From a virus: a DNA stretch of 47,958 nucleotides. Below the pieces are notes generated by a model that had not been told where the DNA came from, ran no database searches, and was given only the letters and a program-made list of their open reading frames with translations. The stretch lies in IMG/VR virus record IMGVR_UViG_3300031787_000197, positions 1 through 47,958 of that record; one strand, given 5' to 3'. The position numbers and the translations under genes are program-made. Positions 1 to 15,289 of the stretch are shown piece by piece. Each line of letters begins with the position of its first letter. Within the stretch, counting starts at the first letter, position 1.

Positions 1-93
1 GTACCGAGAACCTACGCTATCTTTGAACTTGGCCTTTGTTCTAAATAACGGCTACCCTTCTGCCTTGTCATTAACGCTCGTAGGGTCATTGCT
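1..93 (-). ncRNA. candidate group I intron in tRNA-Leu, partial
   Basis: The minus-strand sequence after the anticodon cannot complete a tRNA. It contains GACAAGGCA (70-62), which matches, from memory, the conserved core segment of the cyanobacterial tRNA-Leu group I intron. As in that intron, this segment lies between two strands that can pair (ACCCT at 86-82 with AGGGT at 58-54) and is followed by AGCCG. GGGTAG (57-52) could also act as an internal guide for the exon sequence CTACACTT. CCTACG (83-78) can pair with CGTAGG (16-11). The P7 element and 3' splice site are not identified and may lie outside the window. The insertion point, in or next to the anticodon loop, is where group I introns sit in many bacterial tRNA-Leu genes. 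Confidence 0.45.
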
Positions 94-127
94 AAGTGTA
101 GTGCGTCTACCATTCCGCCACCTGACT
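91..127 (-). tRNA. tRNA-Leu (UAG) 5' exon, interrupted
   Basis: Read on the minus strand, the gene starts with acceptor strand AGTCAGG (127-121), then TG, a D arm GCG-GAATGGTAGA-CGC (118-103) with three clean pairs and the GG of a D loop, A26, then CTACA as the 5' anticodon stem and CTTAGCA, which fits an anticodon loop with UAG in place. The D arm is typical of tRNA-Leu. The expected 3' anticodon stem TGTAG does not follow; sequence resembling a group I intron does. The T arm and 3' acceptor would lie left of position 1, so the gene is cut by the window edge. The exon end is uncertain by a few bases. Confidence 0.6.
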
Positions 128-131
128 ATTT

Positions 132-299
132 TTATTGAATATAAACTACCTCATCTAAATTCAAAATTAAAAGTAACTTTCCATTTTGGTCAGAGAATGT
201 TTGAAATTTACCACATCCTTTAACAATACGTTCATTCAATATTTCACCAATTTCTTTAATAATTTCTATTGATGCCCCGTTCTTAAAATAAATTTTCAT
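132..299 (-). CDS. small hypothetical protein (55 aa)
   Basis: An ORF of 55 codons with ATG at 299 and TAA at 134-132, fitting exactly between the interrupted tRNA-Leu gene and the next tRNA-like gene. The protein starts MKIYFKNGASIEIIKEIG and ends in a hydrophobic, beta-like stretch LLLILNLDEVVYIQ. This fits a small one-domain phage protein with an N-terminal helix and C-terminal strands. There is no signal peptide or membrane segment. I do not recognise the family. Its coding status rests on the clean fit into the gap, the plausible amino-acid composition and the same orientation as its neighbours. Confidence 0.6.
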   Translation of the reverse strand: MKIYFKNGASIEIIKEIGEILNERIVKGCGKFQTFSDQNGKLLLILNLDEVVYIQ

Positions 300-3979: not shown

Positions 3980-4175
3980 TTTTTGGTTAATGAATGCTAT
4001 ATTTATGCCTTGAACAGCAATATTTAAAGAATGAACAAATACATATAAAAGGATGTAATGGGATGTACACCTACTGCATTATACTTAAAAAGATATATAA
4101 AAGGTAAGTGATTACACTTAGTTTAGGTATTATTTCCCACCCTATGTGCTTATCACCCACCCTTTATATATGAAA

Positions 4176-6670: not shown

Positions 6671-6989
6671 AAAAACTACATATATAAATACAGAGCTTGA
6701 CTGGGCTGAGCAACAGCTCACATCCTGGAAAGCTTATGTAGATGCCAATCCCCTTCATGAACTGAAAGATAGGATTGAATGGAAACCTACAGCTAAAGGA
6801 GGAATGCTCCCTATGGTGATTGCCTCTATAGAAGCTCAGGGAAAGTTTATACAGGAAACTATGAAGAACTACTTAGCCCTGCTTGAAGTGGTGGATAAGT
6901 TGCGTTCTGCAGAAGAGGCAAAGGTGGAAGTGAGAGGTAAAGGAGAGCTCAGCTCTATGGCTGAAGATTTCCTTAAAAGCAGAAAATAA
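6657..6989 (+). CDS. candidate terminase small subunit (110 aa)
   Basis: A 110-residue helical protein directly before the large terminase and overlapping its ATG by one base. It reads MASIKKTTYINTELDWAEQQ, a middle HELKDRIEWKPTAKGGMLPM and a long helix KFIQETMKNYLALLEVVDKL, followed by a Lys/Glu-rich tail. Position and size fit a small terminase subunit, and the ordered helix could be the oligomerisation core. I see no clear helix-turn-helix, so the call is mainly from context. The winged-helix protein at 4930 is the alternative candidate for the small terminase role. Confidence 0.4.
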   Translation: MASIKKTTYINTELDWAEQQLTSWKAYVDANPLHELKDRIEWKPTAKGGMLPMVIASIEAQGKFIQETMKNYLALLEVVDKLRSAEEAKVEVRGKGELSSMAEDFLKSRK

Positions 6990-9004
6990 TGAGTGCATTG
7001 CAATCTATAGATTATAAAGATTGGTATATAAATCAGAAACGTATTCCTGACAAAGATTCTTCTGAACATAAATCCTTTTTCAATTTCCACAAAGAACTGT
7101 GCCTGAATGGGGCTATGATGAATGGGGTGTACATTAATCCCTTTCTCTATTGGCACTTGAACATCTGGCATACAGAGGTGGATGTTATAGATGAACGTGG
7201 AAGAATCTCACAGAAGTATGCCAATCCCTTGCTCAGAGACAACGAATGGATTGTAACAAATGAGATTGATAAGTCTCAACAAGAGAAGAAAGGGTTGGTG
7301 ATATTAGGAATCAGACGTTTTGCCAAGTCTGTATTAGAAGCTTCTTACATTGGATGGGGAGCTACATTTGATGAAAACTCCCAGAACATTATTGCTGGAT
7401 TGAATGCTCCAGATATAAAGCTGATTACAGACAAGCTTGATAAAGGACTCAACTTCCTTCCAGAAGCTTGGAGGTGGCAGAGAATAGAGGACAACTGGAA
7501 GAATCAGGTGACACTTGGTATTAAAACAAAATCAGGAGAAAGGATTCCGTATTCTCAAATCCTCATCCGTAACCTTGATGAAGGTAATAACGAGGAAGCT
7601 ATTGCTGGTACAAAACCTCGTAAATTAATTATAGATGAAATTGGTAAGGGGAACTTTCTTAGAGGTTTCCAAGCAGCTGTCCCTGGTTTCACAACACCGT
7701 TTGGTTGGGGATGTTCTCCAATTCTTACGGGCACTGGGGGTGATATGAAAAAGTTTATGGACGCTAAGTCCTTGATGTTTGATGTAGACAATTTCAACTT
7801 TCTTACATATAATAATGAGAAAGATGATAAGCGTATACATGGACTATTCATTTCCTATAAATATAGGATGGAGGCTAAAGAACCCTCTACACTTGGGGAC
7901 TACCTCAACAATCCTGCTCTCAAAGAAATTCCAATGCTGGTGAGTAATGAAGAGAAAGCTCTTAATATCACCAACTCCAACCTGGAAAAACTTAAAAAAG
8001 CTGGAGACAGAATAGCCTATCTGAAAGAAAAGATGTACTATCCCATAGAAGTGGATGACATATTTCTTAATGAAGATACAAACATATTTGATATTGAAGC
8101 TGCTAAACGTCAGAAGTTTAGGCTTATGCAACAGGAGAGAACAGGTGTTCCTGTTATTCTGTTCAATGATGGAGATAAGATAGCACATCAATTCACTGAT
8201 AAACAGCCTATTACAAACTTCCCTTTAAAGAACAGTGATTTAAAAGATGCTCCTGTTGTAATATATGAGTTTCCTGTGGAGAGTCCTCCTTATGGGCTTT
8301 ATGTTGCTGGGGTCGATCCTTATAGACAGGGAAAATCAGCATACAGTTCTTCTCTTGGAAGTGTGTATATTTACAAAAGAATGCACGATCTTACAGGAGA
8401 GAAATATCAGGATATGTTCGTAGCTTCGTACTGTGCAAGACCTGATAAGAAGGAAACATGGGAAGAACAGGCCAGACTTCTCATTAAATATTACAATGCT
8501 CGTACCCTTTGTGAGAATGATGACATATCGTTTATTGAATACATGAAATCTAAAGGAGATGCACATTACTTGGAAAAGCAGCCACAGTGGCTTATGGAAG
8601 TGGTACCAAACACCACAGTTAAACGTGAATATGGTGTACACCGTTCAGCACAAAAAGTGATAGACTATTTACACAACTGTCTCAAGAAGTATATGGAAGA
8701 AGTGGTGTATAAAGAGACAGATGAAAATGGTAATGTTACAAAAGAAGTGACAGGAGTGAGTAAGATATTTGACCCTGTTCTTCTGGAAGAAATAATACAA
8801 TACAATGATCAGGGTAACTTTGACCGTATTGTAGCAGCAGAATTAGCTATTGCCCAAGCTATTAAGATGGACCCCATTCTTGGAAAGGTGGGAGGATCTG
8901 GAGATGATAGGGTGGCAGCAATGTTTGCAAAGAAATCTAAAAACACCTTGTTTACAGAATCAAGGGGAATGTTTAATACAAGAAAACGTAAATTGTTTAC
9001 ATAA
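6989..9004 (+). CDS. terL: terminase large subunit (671 aa)
   Basis: The DNA-packaging motor. The N-terminal ATPase domain has a phage-type Walker A, GIRRFAKS (residues 107-114), a Walker B LIIDE (213-217) with the catalytic Glu, and a coupling motif ILTGTG (245-250). The C-terminal RNase H-like nuclease has the first metal-binding Asp in VAGVDPYRQG (D443), an ENDDISFIEYM block and the late acidic pair GSGDDRVAAM (D639/D640). The 671-residue length is normal for crAss-like TerL. It cuts concatemers and drives DNA through the portal encoded next door. Start and stop overlap both neighbours by one base (TAATG), so expression is coupled to the portal. Confidence 0.93.
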   Translation: MSALQSIDYKDWYINQKRIPDKDSSEHKSFFNFHKELCLNGAMMNGVYINPFLYWHLNIWHTEVDVIDERGRISQKYANPLLRDNEWIVTNEIDKSQQEKKGLVILGIRRFAKSVLEASYIGWGATFDENSQNIIAGLNAPDIKLITDKLDKGLNFLPEAWRWQRIEDNWKNQVTLGIKTKSGERIPYSQILIRNLDEGNNEEAIAGTKPRKLIIDEIGKGNFLRGFQAAVPGFTTPFGWGCSPILTGTGGDMKKFMDAKSLMFDVDNFNFLTYNNEKDDKRIHGLFISYKYRMEAKEPSTLGDYLNNPALKEIPMLVSNEEKALNITNSNLEKLKKAGDRIAYLKEKMYYPIEVDDIFLNEDTNIFDIEAAKRQKFRLMQQERTGVPVILFNDGDKIAHQFTDKQPITNFPLKNSDLKDAPVVIYEFPVESPPYGLYVAGVDPYRQGKSAYSSSLGSVYIYKRMHDLTGEKYQDMFVASYCARPDKKETWEEQARLLIKYYNARTLCENDDISFIEYMKSKGDAHYLEKQPQWLMEVVPNTTVKREYGVHRSAQKVIDYLHNCLKKYMEEVVYKETDENGNVTKEVTGVSKIFDPVLLEEIIQYNDQGNFDRIVAAELAIAQAIKMDPILGKVGGSGDDRVAAMFAKKSKNTLFTESRGMFNTRKRKLFT

Positions 9005-11598
9005 TGGCAATAATTAGGTATACCAAAGATGCAACAATACGCTATGCGTATTTAAATATATTTCCAGATCAATTTAAAACTGAGAAAGAAAAGAAGGATG
9101 AAAGCTGGATAAAGAACACGATGGACTACTTTGCAAACAAGGCTTATGCTGAGTATGTAAAGAACCGTGATACGTTTGTAAAGAACTATGACCTGGTAAA
9201 GGGCATTCTCAGGATGGAAGACTTCTATCAAGAGCCTCAGGTGAAGAGTTTTACAGATATGCTTACAGCAGATTTACAGCTTCCTGCGTACGTGAAACAT
9301 TATTCAATTATCACCACTCCTATTAATAACCTGGTGGGTGAAATCACAAAAAGACCTGACACATATAGAGTGAAGGCATTTGATGATGATAGTAAATCAG
9401 AAGAATTACAATATAAGACAGATCTTCTCCAGGGATATATAATGAGCAAAGCTAAATCCAAGATAATGGAAAAGTTTGCAATGGAAGGACAAGAGGAAGA
9501 AGTTCCTGAAGAAGAAATTGAACAGATGACAATGGAACAAGTGAAAGATCAACTTGATTCCTATACATCTGTGGCTGAGAAATGGGCAAATCATGTTCTT
9601 ACAGCTCAGAAAATGGAGTTTAATTTAAAGGAGAAAAGTGAGGATGCTTTCAGGGATTTGTTAATATCATCAAGAGAGTTCTATCATATATATGAAGACA
9701 ATTCTAAACTTGGCTTTAATATAGAAGTGGCCAATCCTAAGAACACTTGGTTCCTCACCACACCTGATAGAAAGTATATTTCAGATACCACTGGCAGAGC
9801 ACAGGGTGCATATGCTGCTGGTACAGTGCAGGTGATGGAGCTTTCAGAAATTATTGAAAGTGTTCCAGACTTAACAAAAGAAGAGATTGACCATCTCAGA
9901 TCATCTCTCCAAGATTATGGATTGATTAATGTTAGAGAGTCCAATTTAGGAAACCCTAACGTTTCTCCAGGTATTGATTCAGTTACATATGATACTTTCG
10001 ATCCTCTTGTTCTTCAGACAAGGATGATTATTGAAAGTGAAATGAAGGAGAACAATGATGGGCTAAAAGATTTCCTCGGTCTCACATCTAACGTATCATC
10101 TTTTGGTTATAAGTATGTAGTGGTGAGAGCATATTGGCTCTCCAAGAAGAAGATAGGTAAACTCATCTATCTGGATGAAGTGGGCAATGAACAATCTGTT
10201 CTTGTAGATGAGAGTTACAAATCAGGCACTATGCCTACACAGCAGTCTTTGGAATGGGGATGGATAAATCAGTGGTATCAGGGTATAAAGATTGGTCCAG
10301 ACATCTATCATGTAAAACCGTTCAAACTTCTCACTTATTGTCCTATTATAGGAATGACTTTTGAGGTGAAGAATACAGAAGCTCGTTCTTTGGTTGATAT
10401 GATGAAACCTTTCCAGGTGTTGTACAATGTCTGTATGAATCAGCTTTACAAGCTTTTGGAAAAAGAGGTGGGTAAGGTGTATTTAACATCCATCAGACAC
10501 GTACCTATTCCTAAAGATGGTGATGCACAGGATGCGTTAGATGTTTGGGAAATGGAAGCACGTAACAGAGGTGTTGTATTTATTGATGACTCCCCAGAAA
10601 ACCTGAAATCTCCAAGTTCATTTAACCAGTTTAGAGATATTGACCTTACAAGAACACAAGAGATACAGTCTCGTTATCAACTTGCTATGCAATTGAAAAA
10701 TGAGTGTTGGGAACTGATTGGTATTACAAGACAGAGATTAGGTGGTGTAATGGCCTCAGAATCAGCGACAGGTACAAATGCTGCTATACAACAATCATAT
10801 GCTCAGACAGAACCTTTGTTCATAGCACATGAATATATAATGGGTCAGCTTTATCAGGCAATTATAGATGCTGCCTTGTATGTAGAAAGTCAAAAACCAC
10901 AGTCCACTCTTTCTTACATTACATCTGAAGGAGAATCTGCTTTTGTTCAGGTGAATGGGTCTGACATCAGATTCCGTGATTTAAAAGTGTTCCCAACTAA
11001 CAGACCTGAAGATAACCAAATGTTCCAGGAAATCAGACAGCTTTCTCAAGCACTTCTGCAGAACGGTGGTTCTTTACATGATGTTATAGAACTTTACACT
11101 ACGAAATCTATACGTCAGATGAAGAAGGTGTTCAAAGATCTGAAAGATAGACAAGAAGAAATGCAAGAAAGACAAATGCAGCTTCAGGAACAACAACAGC
11201 AAGCACAGCAGGAACAGCAAATGGCAGCTCTTGAACAAGCGAGAGTTATGGCAGCTGAAAAACAAGCCAATGAAAACTACCAAAAAGAGCTTGATAGGCT
11301 TTCTAAAGAAAAGATTGCCATCATTCAGGCTACAGGGTTTGGTAATGTGGAATCTGAGGATGTTAACCAAAACGCTATTCCTGATGTATTAGAGATGAGT
11401 AAGTTGGCTAATGAAGAGTCAAAGGCTTCAAGAGACTACCAAACAAAGCTTGCAGAAATCAACTCTAAGAACAAACAAGCTGCTGATAAGATGGCTCTTG
11501 AGAGAGAGAAGCTTCAGGTGGCTAGAGAAAACCAAGCTAACGATTTAGCAATAGCTAAGGAGAATGCTAAGGGAAGAAACAAAAAACCTTCTAAATAA
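9004..11598 (+). CDS. portal protein (864 aa)
   Basis: A long portal of the crAss-like type. It forms the dodecameric ring at the capsid vertex that docks the terminase and tail. The N-terminal 600 residues have portal features: the early segment IITTPINNLVGEITKRPDTY (joining clip/wing region), and the later MKPFQVLYNVCMNQLYKLLE and ECWELIGITRQRLG helices, as in other phage portals. From about residue 710 the protein becomes a Gln/Glu/Lys/Ala-rich coiled coil of roughly 150 residues, as expected for the long C-terminal barrel that projects into the head. It follows terL and precedes the SPFH protein, overlapping each by one base. Confidence 0.88.
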   Translation: MAIIRYTKDATIRYAYLNIFPDQFKTEKEKKDESWIKNTMDYFANKAYAEYVKNRDTFVKNYDLVKGILRMEDFYQEPQVKSFTDMLTADLQLPAYVKHYSIITTPINNLVGEITKRPDTYRVKAFDDDSKSEELQYKTDLLQGYIMSKAKSKIMEKFAMEGQEEEVPEEEIEQMTMEQVKDQLDSYTSVAEKWANHVLTAQKMEFNLKEKSEDAFRDLLISSREFYHIYEDNSKLGFNIEVANPKNTWFLTTPDRKYISDTTGRAQGAYAAGTVQVMELSEIIESVPDLTKEEIDHLRSSLQDYGLINVRESNLGNPNVSPGIDSVTYDTFDPLVLQTRMIIESEMKENNDGLKDFLGLTSNVSSFGYKYVVVRAYWLSKKKIGKLIYLDEVGNEQSVLVDESYKSGTMPTQQSLEWGWINQWYQGIKIGPDIYHVKPFKLLTYCPIIGMTFEVKNTEARSLVDMMKPFQVLYNVCMNQLYKLLEKEVGKVYLTSIRHVPIPKDGDAQDALDVWEMEARNRGVVFIDDSPENLKSPSSFNQFRDIDLTRTQEIQSRYQLAMQLKNECWELIGITRQRLGGVMASESATGTNAAIQQSYAQTEPLFIAHEYIMGQLYQAIIDAALYVESQKPQSTLSYITSEGESAFVQVNGSDIRFRDLKVFPTNRPEDNQMFQEIRQLSQALLQNGGSLHDVIELYTTKSIRQMKKVFKDLKDRQEEMQERQMQLQEQQQQAQQEQQMAALEQARVMAAEKQANENYQKELDRLSKEKIAIIQATGFGNVESEDVNQNAIPDVLEMSKLANEESKASRDYQTKLAEINSKNKQAADKMALEREKLQVARENQANDLAIAKENAKGRNKKPSK

Positions 11599-12125
11599 TG
11601 TTAGATAGCAATATTCTTATAAGTACAATTGAATGGATAGGGGAAAAGTGGAACAACTACCTTTCCCCAGTTTCCGTATTGAGATGTTATGAAGGAGGTG
11701 TCTTATTAAGACTTGGTAAATATAAAAAGGATCTTTCAGAAGGACTTAATTTTAAAATCCCTCTAATTGATGAGATTCACACATGTATAAAAACCATTGA
11801 TACATTTCCACTAAACCCTATAGACATTACAACAATAGATGGTAAACAGGTGAGCGTGGAACCAATTGTAATGTTTGATATACACGATCCCAAGAAGTAC
11901 CTGATAGACACAAATGATGCTGCTGGGAATATAAGAGATGTGTCACGTGGAACGATTGCAGACTATCTTACAGACTGTACATGGGAACAGATTAAGGAAA
12001 AGAAAACTCTTACAGCTATCAAGAATGCCATCAAGAAAGAATGTGAGTCTATGGGAATAGTTGTTCACAAGGTGTTTTTTGCTAGAGTGGTGACCACAAA
12101 AGTGTACACAGTGTTCAAAGAGTAA
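11598..12125 (+). CDS. SPFH/band-7 domain protein (175 aa)
   Basis: The sequence fits the SPFH (stomatin/prohibitin/flotillin) core. RCYEGGVLLRLGKYKKDLSE (residues 29-48), GLNFKIPLIDEIH (49-61), a DITTIDGKQVSVEPIVMFDI strand pair (76-95) and the helix NIRDVSRGTIADYLTDCTWE (111-130) match the family layout. A second helix/strand and then VHKVFFARVVTTKVYTVFKE follow. The usual N-terminal membrane anchor is absent, and the C-terminal coiled coil is missing. SPFH proteins form ring-shaped assemblies on membranes. The gene sits between portal and scaffold and starts with a one-base overlap on the portal stop, so a head or portal-assembly role is likely. That role is inference. Confidence 0.72.
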   Translation: MLDSNILISTIEWIGEKWNNYLSPVSVLRCYEGGVLLRLGKYKKDLSEGLNFKIPLIDEIHTCIKTIDTFPLNPIDITTIDGKQVSVEPIVMFDIHDPKKYLIDTNDAAGNIRDVSRGTIADYLTDCTWEQIKEKKTLTAIKNAIKKECESMGIVVHKVFFARVVTTKVYTVFKE

Positions 12126-12197
12126 ACAGAATTAGTTATAGTAAAAAATATTAATGCTATATTATTTGGAAAAATCACAAATAATCAGTATAAGTTC

Positions 12198-12228
12198 TTT
12201 GCTATTTAACGATTGAAATATACTTTTA
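12198..12228 (+). promoter_or_regulatory. Bacteroidota-type promoter for scaffold/capsid genes
   Basis: TTTG (12198-12201), 19 bp, then TACTTTTA (12221-12228; 7 of 8 to TAnnTTTG with A for the last G). It lies in the 132-bp gap before the scaffold gene, 29 bp upstream of the ATG. Together with the gap, it suggests the capsid genes get their own late promoter. Confidence 0.6.
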
Positions 12229-12257
12229 CATTAAACCAATAAAAAAACGAACTACAT

Positions 12258-13511
12258 ATGGCCGAAAATTTGGAAACTCCCCAATTTAATTTCAGTATTG
12301 AAAATACAATGGAGATGGGAGCAGGTAATGCTGAACTTCTAAATGACCTCATGTCTCCAGAAACTGCTTCTAGCAGTCCTGATGATATTAAGGATATTAA
12401 AGAAGAAGCTCCTGTAAAAAAGGAACCTGTAAAAGCTGAAGCGAAAGCAAATAGCGAGGATACAGAAAAGGAAGATGCATCAATCTCTCTTCAGAAATTC
12501 TTATTATCAGACACTGACAAAGAAGAAGAAGAGGAAGAAGAGGTTGTTACCACTCCTTCAAAAGAGAAAGCAAAACCTGTTGCTTCTGAAAAAGAACCTG
12601 AAGAATCTGAAGAAGCACCAGAAGTTACACAATTTGGTGCACTTGCAAATGACCTGTTCAAACTAGGTGTATTTACAAAAGGTGAAGATGAAGAAGATGT
12701 TCCTATAACCACTCCTGAAGAATTCCTTGAGAGATTTCAAGAAGAAAAAAGAAAAGGTGCTATTGATGTTGTAAACAACTTCATTGGACAGTTTGGTGAA
12801 GATTATCAACAAGCTTTCCAAGCAATCTTTGTAAAAGGAGTTGATCCAAAAGAATATTTCGGCACATACAATAATGTTTTAAACTTTGCTGAGATGGATC
12901 TTTCAGAAGAATCAAATCAGGTGAAAGTGATAAAACAAGCTCTTACAGACCAAGGATTTGATCCTGAAGATGTTGATACAGAAGTGGAACGTCTTAAAAA
13001 CTATGGTGATCTTGAAACTGTAGCTACAAAGCACCACAAGGTGTTGGTAAAAAAAGAAGCAGCAAAGCTTCAGGAAATGGAACAAAGGTCACAGCAAGAG
13101 TTACAACAAAGACAAGCTATCAAGAATCAGTATATTAATAATGTACAAACGATTCTTCAAGATAAACTTAAAACAAAAGAGTTTGACGGTATTCCCATCA
13201 ACCCCAAACTAGTAAACGAACTACAAGACTTCTTACTGGTGGATAGATATAAGACATCTTCTGGAGAAACTATTACAGAATTTGATCGCTCTATCCTGGA
13301 GTTGAAGAGACCTGAAAACCATGAAAAAAAGGTTAAGGTTGGACTTCTCCTCAAGATCCTTGAAAAGGATCCCACCCTTTCTACAATTCAAAAGACAGGA
13401 ATAAGCAAGAAGTCTGATCAATTATTTGGTGAAGTGGCAAGACAAGCATCTAAAACTTCAGTGAAATCAAATAATGGTGGGCAACAGAAGACCAATTCAT
13501 GGTTTATATAA
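12258..13511 (+). CDS. capsid scaffolding protein (417 aa)
   Basis: It is placed directly before the major capsid protein and has scaffold character. The first 130 residues are acidic and low-complexity (runs of E, K, P, S; EEEEEEEVVTTPSKEKAK). The middle is an alpha-helical domain (PITTPEEFLERFQEEKRKGA; NNFIGQFGEDYQQAFQAIF). Then comes a coiled coil near residues 255-300 (EAAKLQEMEQRSQQELQQRQ) and a helical C-terminus ending QKTNSWFI. There are no cysteines or signal peptide. Phage scaffolds guide prohead assembly and are usually removed by exit or proteolysis. No protease domain is visible in this gene. The promoter upstream would supply both this gene and the capsid gene. Confidence 0.75.
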   Translation: MAENLETPQFNFSIENTMEMGAGNAELLNDLMSPETASSSPDDIKDIKEEAPVKKEPVKAEAKANSEDTEKEDASISLQKFLLSDTDKEEEEEEEVVTTPSKEKAKPVASEKEPEESEEAPEVTQFGALANDLFKLGVFTKGEDEEDVPITTPEEFLERFQEEKRKGAIDVVNNFIGQFGEDYQQAFQAIFVKGVDPKEYFGTYNNVLNFAEMDLSEESNQVKVIKQALTDQGFDPEDVDTEVERLKNYGDLETVATKHHKVLVKKEAAKLQEMEQRSQQELQQRQAIKNQYINNVQTILQDKLKTKEFDGIPINPKLVNELQDFLLVDRYKTSSGETITEFDRSILELKRPENHEKKVKVGLLLKILEKDPTLSTIQKTGISKKSDQLFGEVARQASKTSVKSNNGGQQKTNSWFI

Positions 13512-13539: not shown

Positions 13540-15093
13540 ATGGCAATTCAAACAATCCCAGGCTTAACTGGTTTTACGTATGCTCGTGTTGCTTCTATGG
13601 ACAAACGTGCTGTAGGAAAGCTCACCGATGCTAACCACCTGGAATCATTCCACTCAACTGAACCTGCTGACTATGATAAGAAGATCATCAGTCTGTATAC
13701 TCAGAGTTCTTTGTACAGCAATGACTTCCTGGACATGATTAATAAAAGCACACCTTATTACATTGATAATAATAGTGATGCTTGGAAATGGCAAGTGGCT
13801 GTTCCCTACAAATTCCCCAAAATTATTGACATCCCTTCAGCAACAGCTGAATTGAACAAACCAGGTATCGATGGTCAAGAGTTTTCTCTTGTTATTGATA
13901 CTAATGAGTTCTCTAAGAACGCTATTGTTTCTGTAGGTAGTCGTCAGTATGGTCCTCGTTTCTACGTGGTGAAAGATCCAGTTCCTTGGAACATGGGCTT
14001 TTTGTACACTTTCACTTTGGTGACTGATAACCCCACTGTAGATTTCGTTAGCTCTACTTTCTTACAAACTGGTATTGAATTAGAGTTGGTTGATGCTGCA
14101 ATTGGTGAATTTGACCAAGATTTGTTAGGTCTTCCTCGTTTGGGTGAGAAAATCACAATGTTTGAATCTTTAGGTTCTGCATATGGTTTCGAACACAAAA
14201 TCACTGAGTGGGCTGATGACAAAATGATGCGTGATGCTTCTGGTAAACCATTAGACATCTTAGTATATGCTCCTCAACGTCGTAATCAATTACCTTTAAC
14301 TCGTAATGATGTTAAATGGGAACCATTTATTGAGTTCTGGATGCGTAAGTCTATGCTTGAGTTGAAAGTTAAGCGTATGATTTGGAGCAAGCCTGGTACT
14401 GTTAAGACTAATGGTAGCAAGCAAGAATTGAAGCGTACTTCTGCTGGTGTATACCATCGTATGCGTAACAACGGTAACTTAGTTCAATACAATCGTGGTG
14501 AATTTTCTGCAAACCTGATCCGTTCTGTGTTTGGTGATTTGTTCTATCGTCGTGTTGATGTTAAAGACCGTCGTGTTAAGATGTACACTAATGAAGCTGG
14601 TTTTGACGTGTTCCAACAAGCTTTGAAAACAGATGCTTTGAACAGTGGTCTCACTTTCATAGCTGATAGCGGAAATCGTTATTTACAAGGAGAAGGTCAA
14701 CACATCACTTACAACTTTGCATTCGATGCAATGGTTACACGTGAGACTGGTCGTGTTGAACTGATTCACTTGAAAGAACTTGATCTTCCTCAGAGCAATC
14801 TGGAATTTGGTCAGAACAAGAAATCTACACCTGTATTCATGGTATTTGATGTTAGTCCTATGAGCGATGGTTCTTTGGTTAACAACATCCGTGAGGTGCG
14901 TATGAAGGGTGCTCCTTCTATGACTTGGGGATATATTGATGGAACTCGTCACCACTTAGGCTTTGCTAAGTCTCAGGGTATGAGCTCTGCTAACAAATTC
15001 CCTGGTTATGAAATCTGGATGAAAGACCGTTGTGATGTATTCATTGAAGACCTGTCTCGTACAGTGTTGATTGAAGAAATCCCACAATTCTAA
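13540..15093 (+). CDS. major capsid protein (517 aa)
   Basis: Position after the scaffold, length (about 500 residues) and motifs agree with the crAss-like HK97-fold capsid. The N-terminus MAIQTIPGLTGFTYARVASM is followed by the long N-arm, then the P-domain/spine-like segments SLYTQSSLYSNDFLDMINKS and the A-domain region DILVYAPQRRNQL. The late segment WGYIDGTRHHLGFAKSQGM precedes an acidic C-terminus DVFIEDLSRTVLIEEIPQF. Codon use differs from its neighbours: Arg is nearly always CGT, while most other genes here use AGA. This is typical of a very highly expressed gene. It is followed by a structured spacer of nearly 200 bp. Confidence 0.88.
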   Translation: MAIQTIPGLTGFTYARVASMDKRAVGKLTDANHLESFHSTEPADYDKKIISLYTQSSLYSNDFLDMINKSTPYYIDNNSDAWKWQVAVPYKFPKIIDIPSATAELNKPGIDGQEFSLVIDTNEFSKNAIVSVGSRQYGPRFYVVKDPVPWNMGFLYTFTLVTDNPTVDFVSSTFLQTGIELELVDAAIGEFDQDLLGLPRLGEKITMFESLGSAYGFEHKITEWADDKMMRDASGKPLDILVYAPQRRNQLPLTRNDVKWEPFIEFWMRKSMLELKVKRMIWSKPGTVKTNGSKQELKRTSAGVYHRMRNNGNLVQYNRGEFSANLIRSVFGDLFYRRVDVKDRRVKMYTNEAGFDVFQQALKTDALNSGLTFIADSGNRYLQGEGQHITYNFAFDAMVTRETGRVELIHLKELDLPQSNLEFGQNKKSTPVFMVFDVSPMSDGSLVNNIREVRMKGAPSMTWGYIDGTRHHLGFAKSQGMSSANKFPGYEIWMKDRCDVFIEDLSRTVLIEEIPQF

Positions 15094-15098
15094 TTTAC

Positions 15099-15144
15099 GT
15101 TATAGTCTCAGAATTATAACTCTGCTTCCTCTGGAAGCTATAAC
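15099..15144 (+). ncRNA. hairpin at start of post-capsid RNA spacer
   Basis: GTTATAG (15099-15105) can pair with CTATAAC (15138-15144), enclosing an inner hairpin GCTTCC/GGAAGC (15124-15129 with 15133-15138) with loop TCT. The inner stem shares one C with the outer strand, so both can form only in part. It lies a few bases after the capsid stop and is the first of three structured elements in the spacer. Confidence 0.4.
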
Positions 15145-15149
15145 CTACC

Positions 15150-15193
15150 GAGAAGAATCTCCCCCCACTAATCAAAAGTGGGGGAGTCTTCTC
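15150..15193 (+). terminator. long stem-loop after capsid gene
   Basis: GAGAAGA at 15150-15156 pairs with TCTTCTC at 15187-15193, continuing into TCTCCCCC/GGGGGAG and CACT/AGTG around a short AATCAAA loop, with one bulge. There is no T-run after it (AAAACTAC follows), so it is not a clear intrinsic terminator. It may act as an attenuator, an mRNA 3'-end stabiliser or a processing site for the abundant capsid mRNA. Confidence 0.55.
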
Positions 15194-15200
15194 AAAACTA

Positions 15201-15258
15201 CAGAGATGGGGATTGGGGTGTCTCTCAGTCGCTATGGGGTTCGATCCTCGCATCTCTG
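15201..15258 (+). ncRNA. tRNA-like element in spacer
   Basis: CAGAGAT (15201-15207) and ATCTCTG (15252-15258) form a perfect 7-bp acceptor-like stem. GGGGTTCGATCCTCG (15237-15250) contains the GTTCGATC of a T loop with a partial stem. The whole is only 58 nt, too short for a tRNA, and no proper anticodon arm can be drawn. It could be a tRNA remnant or a structure that mimics tRNA for RNase P/Z processing between capsid and next gene. Confidence 0.4.
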
Positions 15259-15289
15259 CTAAATTAAAACCACAAAAAATAACTACATT

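Follow-up and report, generated by a model that had tools for sequence, protein, structure and literature searches.

The IMG/VR virus record IMGVR_UViG_3300031787_000197, analysed here over its whole length of 47,958 bases (the window), carries genes for TerL, portal, SPFH, putative scaffold and major capsid protein (MCP) in this order, with a small gene for a protein of the SPFH family (11598-12125, + strand) lying between the portal and scaffold genes. Its product is an SPFH protein of the stomatin/HflK kind, reduced to a helix and the SPFH core. Across relatives the gene occupies a fixed slot, and it has repeatedly been lost outright or given way to a distant SPFH homologue or to an unrelated pair of genes, a behaviour that was observed directly and is stated with high confidence. 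The SPFH gene of this common environmental crAss-like group is probably a swappable, host-directed add-on and not a fixed part of the head.

Identity and reduction of the SPFH protein

An earlier note on the same DNA had assigned the gene to the SPFH family, and every comparison agreed. The 175-amino-acid (aa) protein matches Pfam Band_7 (PF01145; E 5.5e-15, 56.3 bits with a cut-off of 23.6, residues 32-170), whose threshold is passed by both SPFH subfamilies found in the slot, termed A and B. Against the PDB, phmmer returned HflK (1.7e-5) and stomatin (0.0016-0.0042) for the window protein, and a profile built from 29 relatives returned stomatin (6.9e-18), QmcA (8.1e-14) and HflK (1.4e-13). 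The AlphaFold model (predicted local distance difference test, pLDDT, 86; predicted template modelling score, pTM, 0.69) was matched by Foldseek to human stomatin (6.7e-14, TMq 0.78) and by VIA to stomatin SPFH domains with Z of 15.0-16.5, the best at Z 16.5, root-mean-square deviation 1.1 and 102 aligned residues. Because sequence and fold agree on the stomatin SPFH domains, the match is not due to chance.

The nearest curated models for both subfamilies are the FtsH modulators hflK (TIGR01933) and hflC (TIGR01932), all scores lying under the cut-offs. For hflK, the window protein gives 5.5e-13 and 48.9 bits and the type-B protein of locus L060 gives 1.2e-22 and 80.6 bits, with an equivalog cut-off of 159.4, so neither is an HflK equivalog. 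The phage protein thus shares with HflK/HflC the same SPFH core and an N-terminal helix aligned with the start of an HflK segment, but differs in its low scores, in having neither transmembrane segment nor coiled coil and in being encoded beside a portal gene. Similarly, stomatin provides the best profile and fold matches, whereas the phage protein has neither the hydrophobic hairpin nor the C-terminal oligomerisation region of stomatin.

The reduction described in the earlier note was borne out for the coiled coil and in part for the membrane anchor. The final SPFH strand of the AlphaFold model ends at residue 166 of 175, and since the protein stops nine residues later, it has no coiled coil. 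No transmembrane segment was found either, the best 19-residue Kyte-Doolittle mean being 1.18 in the window protein and 1.1-1.5 in five relatives. The loss of the anchor has to be qualified in that a helix at residues 4-22 (DSSP of the model) aligns with the HflK segment beginning at residue 79 (VIA, model 3..175 to HflK chain 79..256), which we take to be the transmembrane helix of HflK. A membrane anchor is not universal across the SPFH superfamily, as in the vault. Among 70 distinct N-termini, the helix exceeds shuffled versions of itself in amphipathicity in 87% (p <0.05).

SPFH genes in phages are already known, including a 173-aa protein named 'HflK' from an uncultured Caudovirales phage that is 67% identical to the window protein (BFVD A0A6J7WFI0; in UniProt). 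Among named phages, type A matches only an HflK and one unannotated record, and type B matches 20 records, all less than 60% identical. Most of the matched phage SPFH proteins differ from the slot protein in being longer and encoded at other sites, as in Rhizobium phage RHEph10, where the gene lies near rIIA/rIIB. In the open-access literature nothing was found on SPFH proteins in crAss-like phages, nor a description of an SPFH form without coiled coil between portal and scaffold and of its exchange.

Content and turnover of the portal-scaffold slot

The first sign that the slot is unusual came from 80 loci with MCPs 96-98% identical to that of the window, in which TerL and portal are mostly ~80-92% identical and the scaffold mostly 63-81%, with only 22-29% for the slot gene in most. 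The survey covered 335 IMG/VR loci, 294 of them with portal and scaffold recognised, which reduce to 155 junctions distinct by sequence; the window's own copy (L005) and loci with cut portals or scaffolds were left out of the junction counts. A subset of 125 junctions was reached by MCP or portal queries and its selection is therefore independent of SPFH.

The 155 junctions hold a type-B SPFH gene (176 aa) in 92 cases, a type-A, window-like gene (172-176 aa) in 15, an unrelated gene pair (cassette C, 77-83 and 89 aa) in 13 and no gene in 33 (empty state, 126-180 nt), besides one fragment, the type-B remnant of L067, and one orphan open reading frame (ORF) of 73 aa in L018. The corresponding numbers for the 125 MCP/portal-anchored junctions are 67 B, 10 A, 13 C, 33 empty, one fragment and one other, so that the SPFH gene is present in 77, broken in one and missing or replaced in 47, and is not shared by all close relatives. 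Empty slots are more frequent where the anchor is more distant (30 of 67, versus 5 of 54 in the set from the 96-98% MCP-anchored loci). Subfamilies A and B are clearly homologous (hhalign probability 99.4, E 1.8e-21), with an identity of 22-33% even in pairs whose portals reach 90%.

The fixed gene slot overlapping the portal gene, also proposed in the earlier note, was recovered in the relatives: the type-B gene lies directly upstream of the scaffold gene in 80 of 80 loci (79 with both flanks recognised), all nine type-A loci examined have the gene in the slot, and the case of a gene found only outside this slot did not occur. Some slots contain further genes. An extra ORF of 64-68 aa (MLEFRNPIPVVVE...) stands between the portal and the type-B SPFH gene in L124, L158, L160 and L268, the slot of L053 has an endonuclease VII gene (8.3e-26), and that of L213 has a 51-aa ORF, possibly an endonuclease remnant as judged by eye.

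The number of exchanges was estimated on a portal tree (142 rows, last 60 residues omitted, FastTree), in which weakly supported forks matter for the counts. At least 20 changes of state are needed, with minima of 5 for A alone, 6 for C and 9 for empty; the starred branches alone force 14 changes for B, 8 for empty, 5 for A and 4 for C. Within each subfamily SPFH and portal diverge in step (Mantel r 0.50 for B and 0.91 for A), which indicates that replacement is episodic.

The slot and its edges are defined in the window by the following features, all on the + strand:

6989-9004, +, terminase large subunit (TerL), opening the TerL-portal-slot run (PHROG 6681, 5e-87)
9004-11598, +, portal protein, upstream flank of the slot (PHROG 6547, 9.7e-98)
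11598-12125, +, type-A mini-SPFH gene, 175 aa, ATG start, with a 1-base overlap with the portal stop (TAATG)
11607-11663, +, N-terminal helix, residues 4-22, at the position of the transmembrane/hairpin anchor (DSSP of the model, VIA alignment to HflK 79-256, hydrophobic moment)
11670-12095, +, SPFH core, residues 25-166 (Pfam, AlphaFold model, Foldseek, VIA)
12126-12257, +, scaffold-gene leader, downstream edge of the slot, with a box conserved among relatives, TTAATGCTATATTA, at 12151-12164
12258-13511, +, putative scaffold protein, flanking the slot downstream (placed between the portal and MCP genes; PHROG 16294, function unknown, 4e-07)
13540-15093, +, MCP, anchor for the survey of relatives (PHROG 11589, 4.5e-31)

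The scaffold label is putative and comes from position, its PHROG match having no known function. The window portal is ~24-29% identical to the portals of named crassviruses and of Leptolyngbya phage Lbo-JY46, the named relative with the top-scoring portal match, in which 75 nt separate the portal from the next gene.

Six junctions of the module were compared, and besides the slot, four are invariant in gene content and the fifth, from MCP to the next gene, is mildly variable. The TerL-portal spacing stays within 60 nt of its median in 137 of 139 cases; the scaffold-MCP spacing (153/153) and two further junctions (143/143 and 113/113) are equally stable, and the MCP-neighbour junction is intermediate (133/150). 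In 146 of the 155 junctions, across all slot states, the scaffold is preceded by the leader box AATGC[TC]ATATTA, which has two weaker copies in the window at 3991 (+) and 4852 (-) and is possibly a late promoter. In 6 of 15 type-A, 52 of 93 type-B (remnant included) and 13 of 13 cassette-C junctions, the portal stop is also the exact starting point of the first cassette gene, and in nearly all the remaining ones that gene starts within 7 nt. The stable neighbouring junctions, the shared leader and the start on the stop codon together identify the slot as the 3' end of the TerL-portal run, immediately ahead of the scaffold leader, where alternative genes are taken in. With unrelated alternative cassettes at one fixed place between conserved flanks, it is a gene-swap hotspot. 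It is not a classical moron with its own promoter and terminator, since a scan limited to sigma-70-type promoters stayed at chance level in the slot and no terminator-like site was detected there.

Three observations concern the neighbouring genes. The MCP-to-next-gene junction (region 15094-15289 of the window in relatives) is a second, milder insertion site, with 17 of 150 junctions more than 60 nt off the median. In L115 and L118, TerL is 57-59% and the portal 81% identical to those of the window, and TerL seems to have been exchanged as well. The portal gene of uncultured phage cr131_1 (L087:4977-7472) has eight in-frame stops under table 11, probably reflecting a stop codon read as an amino acid.

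Where present, the SPFH gene is under strong purifying selection (median ratio of nonsynonymous to synonymous substitution rates, dN/dS, 0.069 for B over 771 pairs and 0.056 for A over 11 pairs), and the low values in both subfamilies indicate a functional gene. It is dispensable over longer time scales. Records carry either none or one Band_7 gene (found in 13 of 25 and in 9 of 16 records), and never one where the slot is empty or in state C; the records of 91-117 kb with these slot states have no Band_7 gene anywhere, which rules out relocation of the gene in the near-complete records searched. In L067 (3590-4115), ~229 nt are lost from the start of the type-B gene with a frameshift, in a sequence 99.9% identical to L072 over 12.9 kb; this is one contig and may be an assembly error. 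The empty and replaced slots, together with this single and possibly erroneous deletion, rule out an essential head gene.

Candidate roles of the slot gene

The role favoured in the earlier note, a ring on the portal or an assembly chaperone, is not supported by the survey. As a portal or prohead factor, the protein would form a small SPFH ring or a membrane platform helping the portal start head assembly in carrier phages. The slot is indeed fixed beside the portal with a stop-start overlap, and a short SPFH gene without coiled coil also follows TerL in the unrelated podovirus MW202733.1 (L174:5001-5540). However, that gene is distant from the head-to-tail joining (portal) gene of the podovirus (41 kb versus 21.5 kb in the record), and in the present group the gene is absent, replaced or deleted (33 empty slots and 13 with the other gene pair among 155, and the deletion in L067) despite MCPs 96-98% identical and portals ~80-90% identical. 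Moreover, the switch between B and A is not accompanied by changes in portal, scaffold or MCP beyond those obtained by label swaps: in five contrasts of A with its sister, a comparison of low power, the tracking columns number two in the portal, one in the scaffold and none in the MCP, with ranges over 32 labellings of 1-15, 0-14 and 0-1, respectively. At portal position 750 the residue H occurs in 13 of 15 type-A rows versus 14 of 128 others, and the residue in the window is A. Both the absence of the gene from near relatives and the missing tracking changes weigh against a structural partner in the head, and a portal-ring or assembly role is disfavoured and considered unlikely.

A blanket rejection of a ring is tempered by FliL, the stomatin-like ring of the flagellar stator, which makes a decameric ring, thought to encircle a motor part, from an SPFH-like domain without coiled coil (PMC6426602) and so shows that such a domain can ring a machine. 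FliL is among the structural matches of the model (VIA Z 11.4), but it is periplasmic with a transmembrane helix and its similarity to the phage protein is structural only.

The gene order of T4 and HK97 had raised the idea of a prohead protease in the slot, which was dropped, as no protease is found there in A and B carriers and the C pair is also located away from these head genes in another phage. The protein could alternatively be an accessory virion component, a surface or cargo protein taking by position the place of the head fibre gp21, which follows the portal gene in gut crassviruses. In PhicrAss001, gp21, the next number after portal gp20, forms trimeric head fibres on the capsomers that border the portal vertex (PMC10172136), and in Bacteroides phage DAC15 the gene directly after the portal is annotated as a head fibre protein; such fibres are plausibly dispensable. 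The conserved part of the slot protein is an SPFH core, though, with no fibre, adhesin or known capsid-binding domain, and this role is very improbable.

Additionally, the hotspot behaviour with alternative cassettes would suit a superinfection exclusion or anti-competitor gene altering a membrane complex that other phages need for DNA entry. The hotspot beside the portal gene gpQ of P2-like phages likewise has variable accessory genes at a fixed place, including the exclusion genes old and tin (PMC9122126). It belongs to a different phage group, its exclusion genes are known ones, and no SPFH gene appears in the portion of that source available. Defence models (PADLOC) gave no significant match, and the SPFH gene, encoded with packaging genes, is probably expressed late, which is late for exclusion. 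An exclusion gene is regarded as quite unlikely.

Here it is proposed, tentatively and with a probability put slightly below even for the claim as a whole, putative target included, that the slot SPFH is an accessory, host-directed mini-SPFH cassette gene whose core acts on host SPFH/FtsH complexes. A host-directed accessory factor is favoured by the absence of the gene in near relatives, the lack of tracking changes, the occurrence of cassette C elsewhere, the SPFH genes of other phages and the P2-like precedent. The SPFH, band-7 and prohibitin proteins of other phages are listed as moron, lysogeny-related or uncharacterised genes in four papers, in which effects on HflK/C-FtsH are a suggestion only (PMC10269572, PMC8540360, PMC3220722, PMC1524935). 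The second idea of the earlier note, control of membrane proteolysis, is the one that best fits the family, and the note's interpretation as a whole is partly supported. The mini-SPFH would act in the infected cell on the inner side of the host membrane, where its core may dock on host SPFH assemblies, such as HflK/HflC- or stomatin-like rings with FtsH. Without the cage-building coiled coil, it could cap, poison or redirect these complexes, which would shift which membrane or phage proteins are degraded, and subfamilies A and B may each be suited to different SPFH partners in the host. Ordinary bacteria do have putative targets, as control searches gave Band_7 matches in 14 of 14 genomes, one of them a Bacteroides.

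Several results weigh against a host-directed role. PADLOC matched neither the window protein nor the type-B protein of L060, and its one match for the L082 type-B protein was not significant (0.07). A single pattern scan of bacterial genome contigs found no relative, so that host origin or mimicry is unsupported and a bacterial origin was set aside, although more distant host homologues could escape such patterns. Counting the fragment, SPFH is present in 108 of 155 junctions and in 78 of the 125 selected independently of SPFH; such a frequency, the fixed slot and the coupling to the portal would also be expected of a non-essential virion or assembly factor. Furthermore, the window's own N-terminal helix is not significantly amphipathic (p 0.19, hydrophobic moment), and the type-B helices are net acidic by eye, which counts against plain lipid binding.

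Possible proteolytic companions and significance

Cassette C was seen in L012 (4102-4567) and 12 further distinct slots as a gene of 77-83 aa together with one of 89 aa, the latter with the conserved motif HEHFHLKHP. The pair recurs in 13 contigs belonging to another type of phage (L356, L359-L370), in which none of these head genes were detected; 22 of its 35 loci have the flanks of the present clade. In one contig read with translations, it closes a rightward run of genes and is followed by genes on the opposite strand. The HEHFH protein has no match in Pfam, PHROG, NCBIfam, the PDB or phages, and its predicted model is unusable (pLDDT 57). Its motif, the sole basis for this assignment, is presumably a hint of a metalloprotease, and cassette C is possibly a mini-metalloprotease with a partner.

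The top companion of SPFH in the gene content of 15 near-complete relatives is a family of ~145-154 aa with an HExxH motif (type M), matching PHROG 1365 (function unknown, 2.1e-9). Its N-terminus has a membrane anchor or, in genome G007, a lipobox-like cysteine, both judged by eye. Over 40 records, type M is present in 12 of 28 SPFH carriers and in none of 12 non-carriers (Fisher 0.002 on 26 long records), e.g., at G032:C1:20810-21265 (L427:810-1265) and in 11 more records, where it does not adjoin SPFH; it is not encoded in the window, a 47,958-base fragment. Type M was chosen after looking, from 143 families in at least three of the 15 genomes, of which about one would show such a pattern by chance on our own estimate. 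In tree-aware pairs the association is not significant (median p 0.25), type M differing in ~3 of seven pairs, always in the same direction. A 115-aa family anti-correlated with SPFH in the 15 genomes lost this pattern in the 40 records. The co-occurrence of type M and SPFH is a weak lead. It might reflect, as a long shot, a phage membrane-proteolysis module gained and lost together, consisting of a cytoplasmic-side mini-SPFH and a separately encoded, membrane-anchored HExxH metalloprotease, with cassette C as a different, protease-only solution at the slot.

Closely related phages that differ at one slot, with SPFH A, SPFH B, another gene pair or nothing, constitute a testable case. If the protein does act on host SPFH/FtsH complexes, it would show phage control of membrane proteolysis by the SPFH core alone, and if it forms a portal ring instead, the SPFH fold would have been put to a new use. 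In both cases, host-interaction genes are worth seeking at the portal-scaffold junction of these crAss-like phages.

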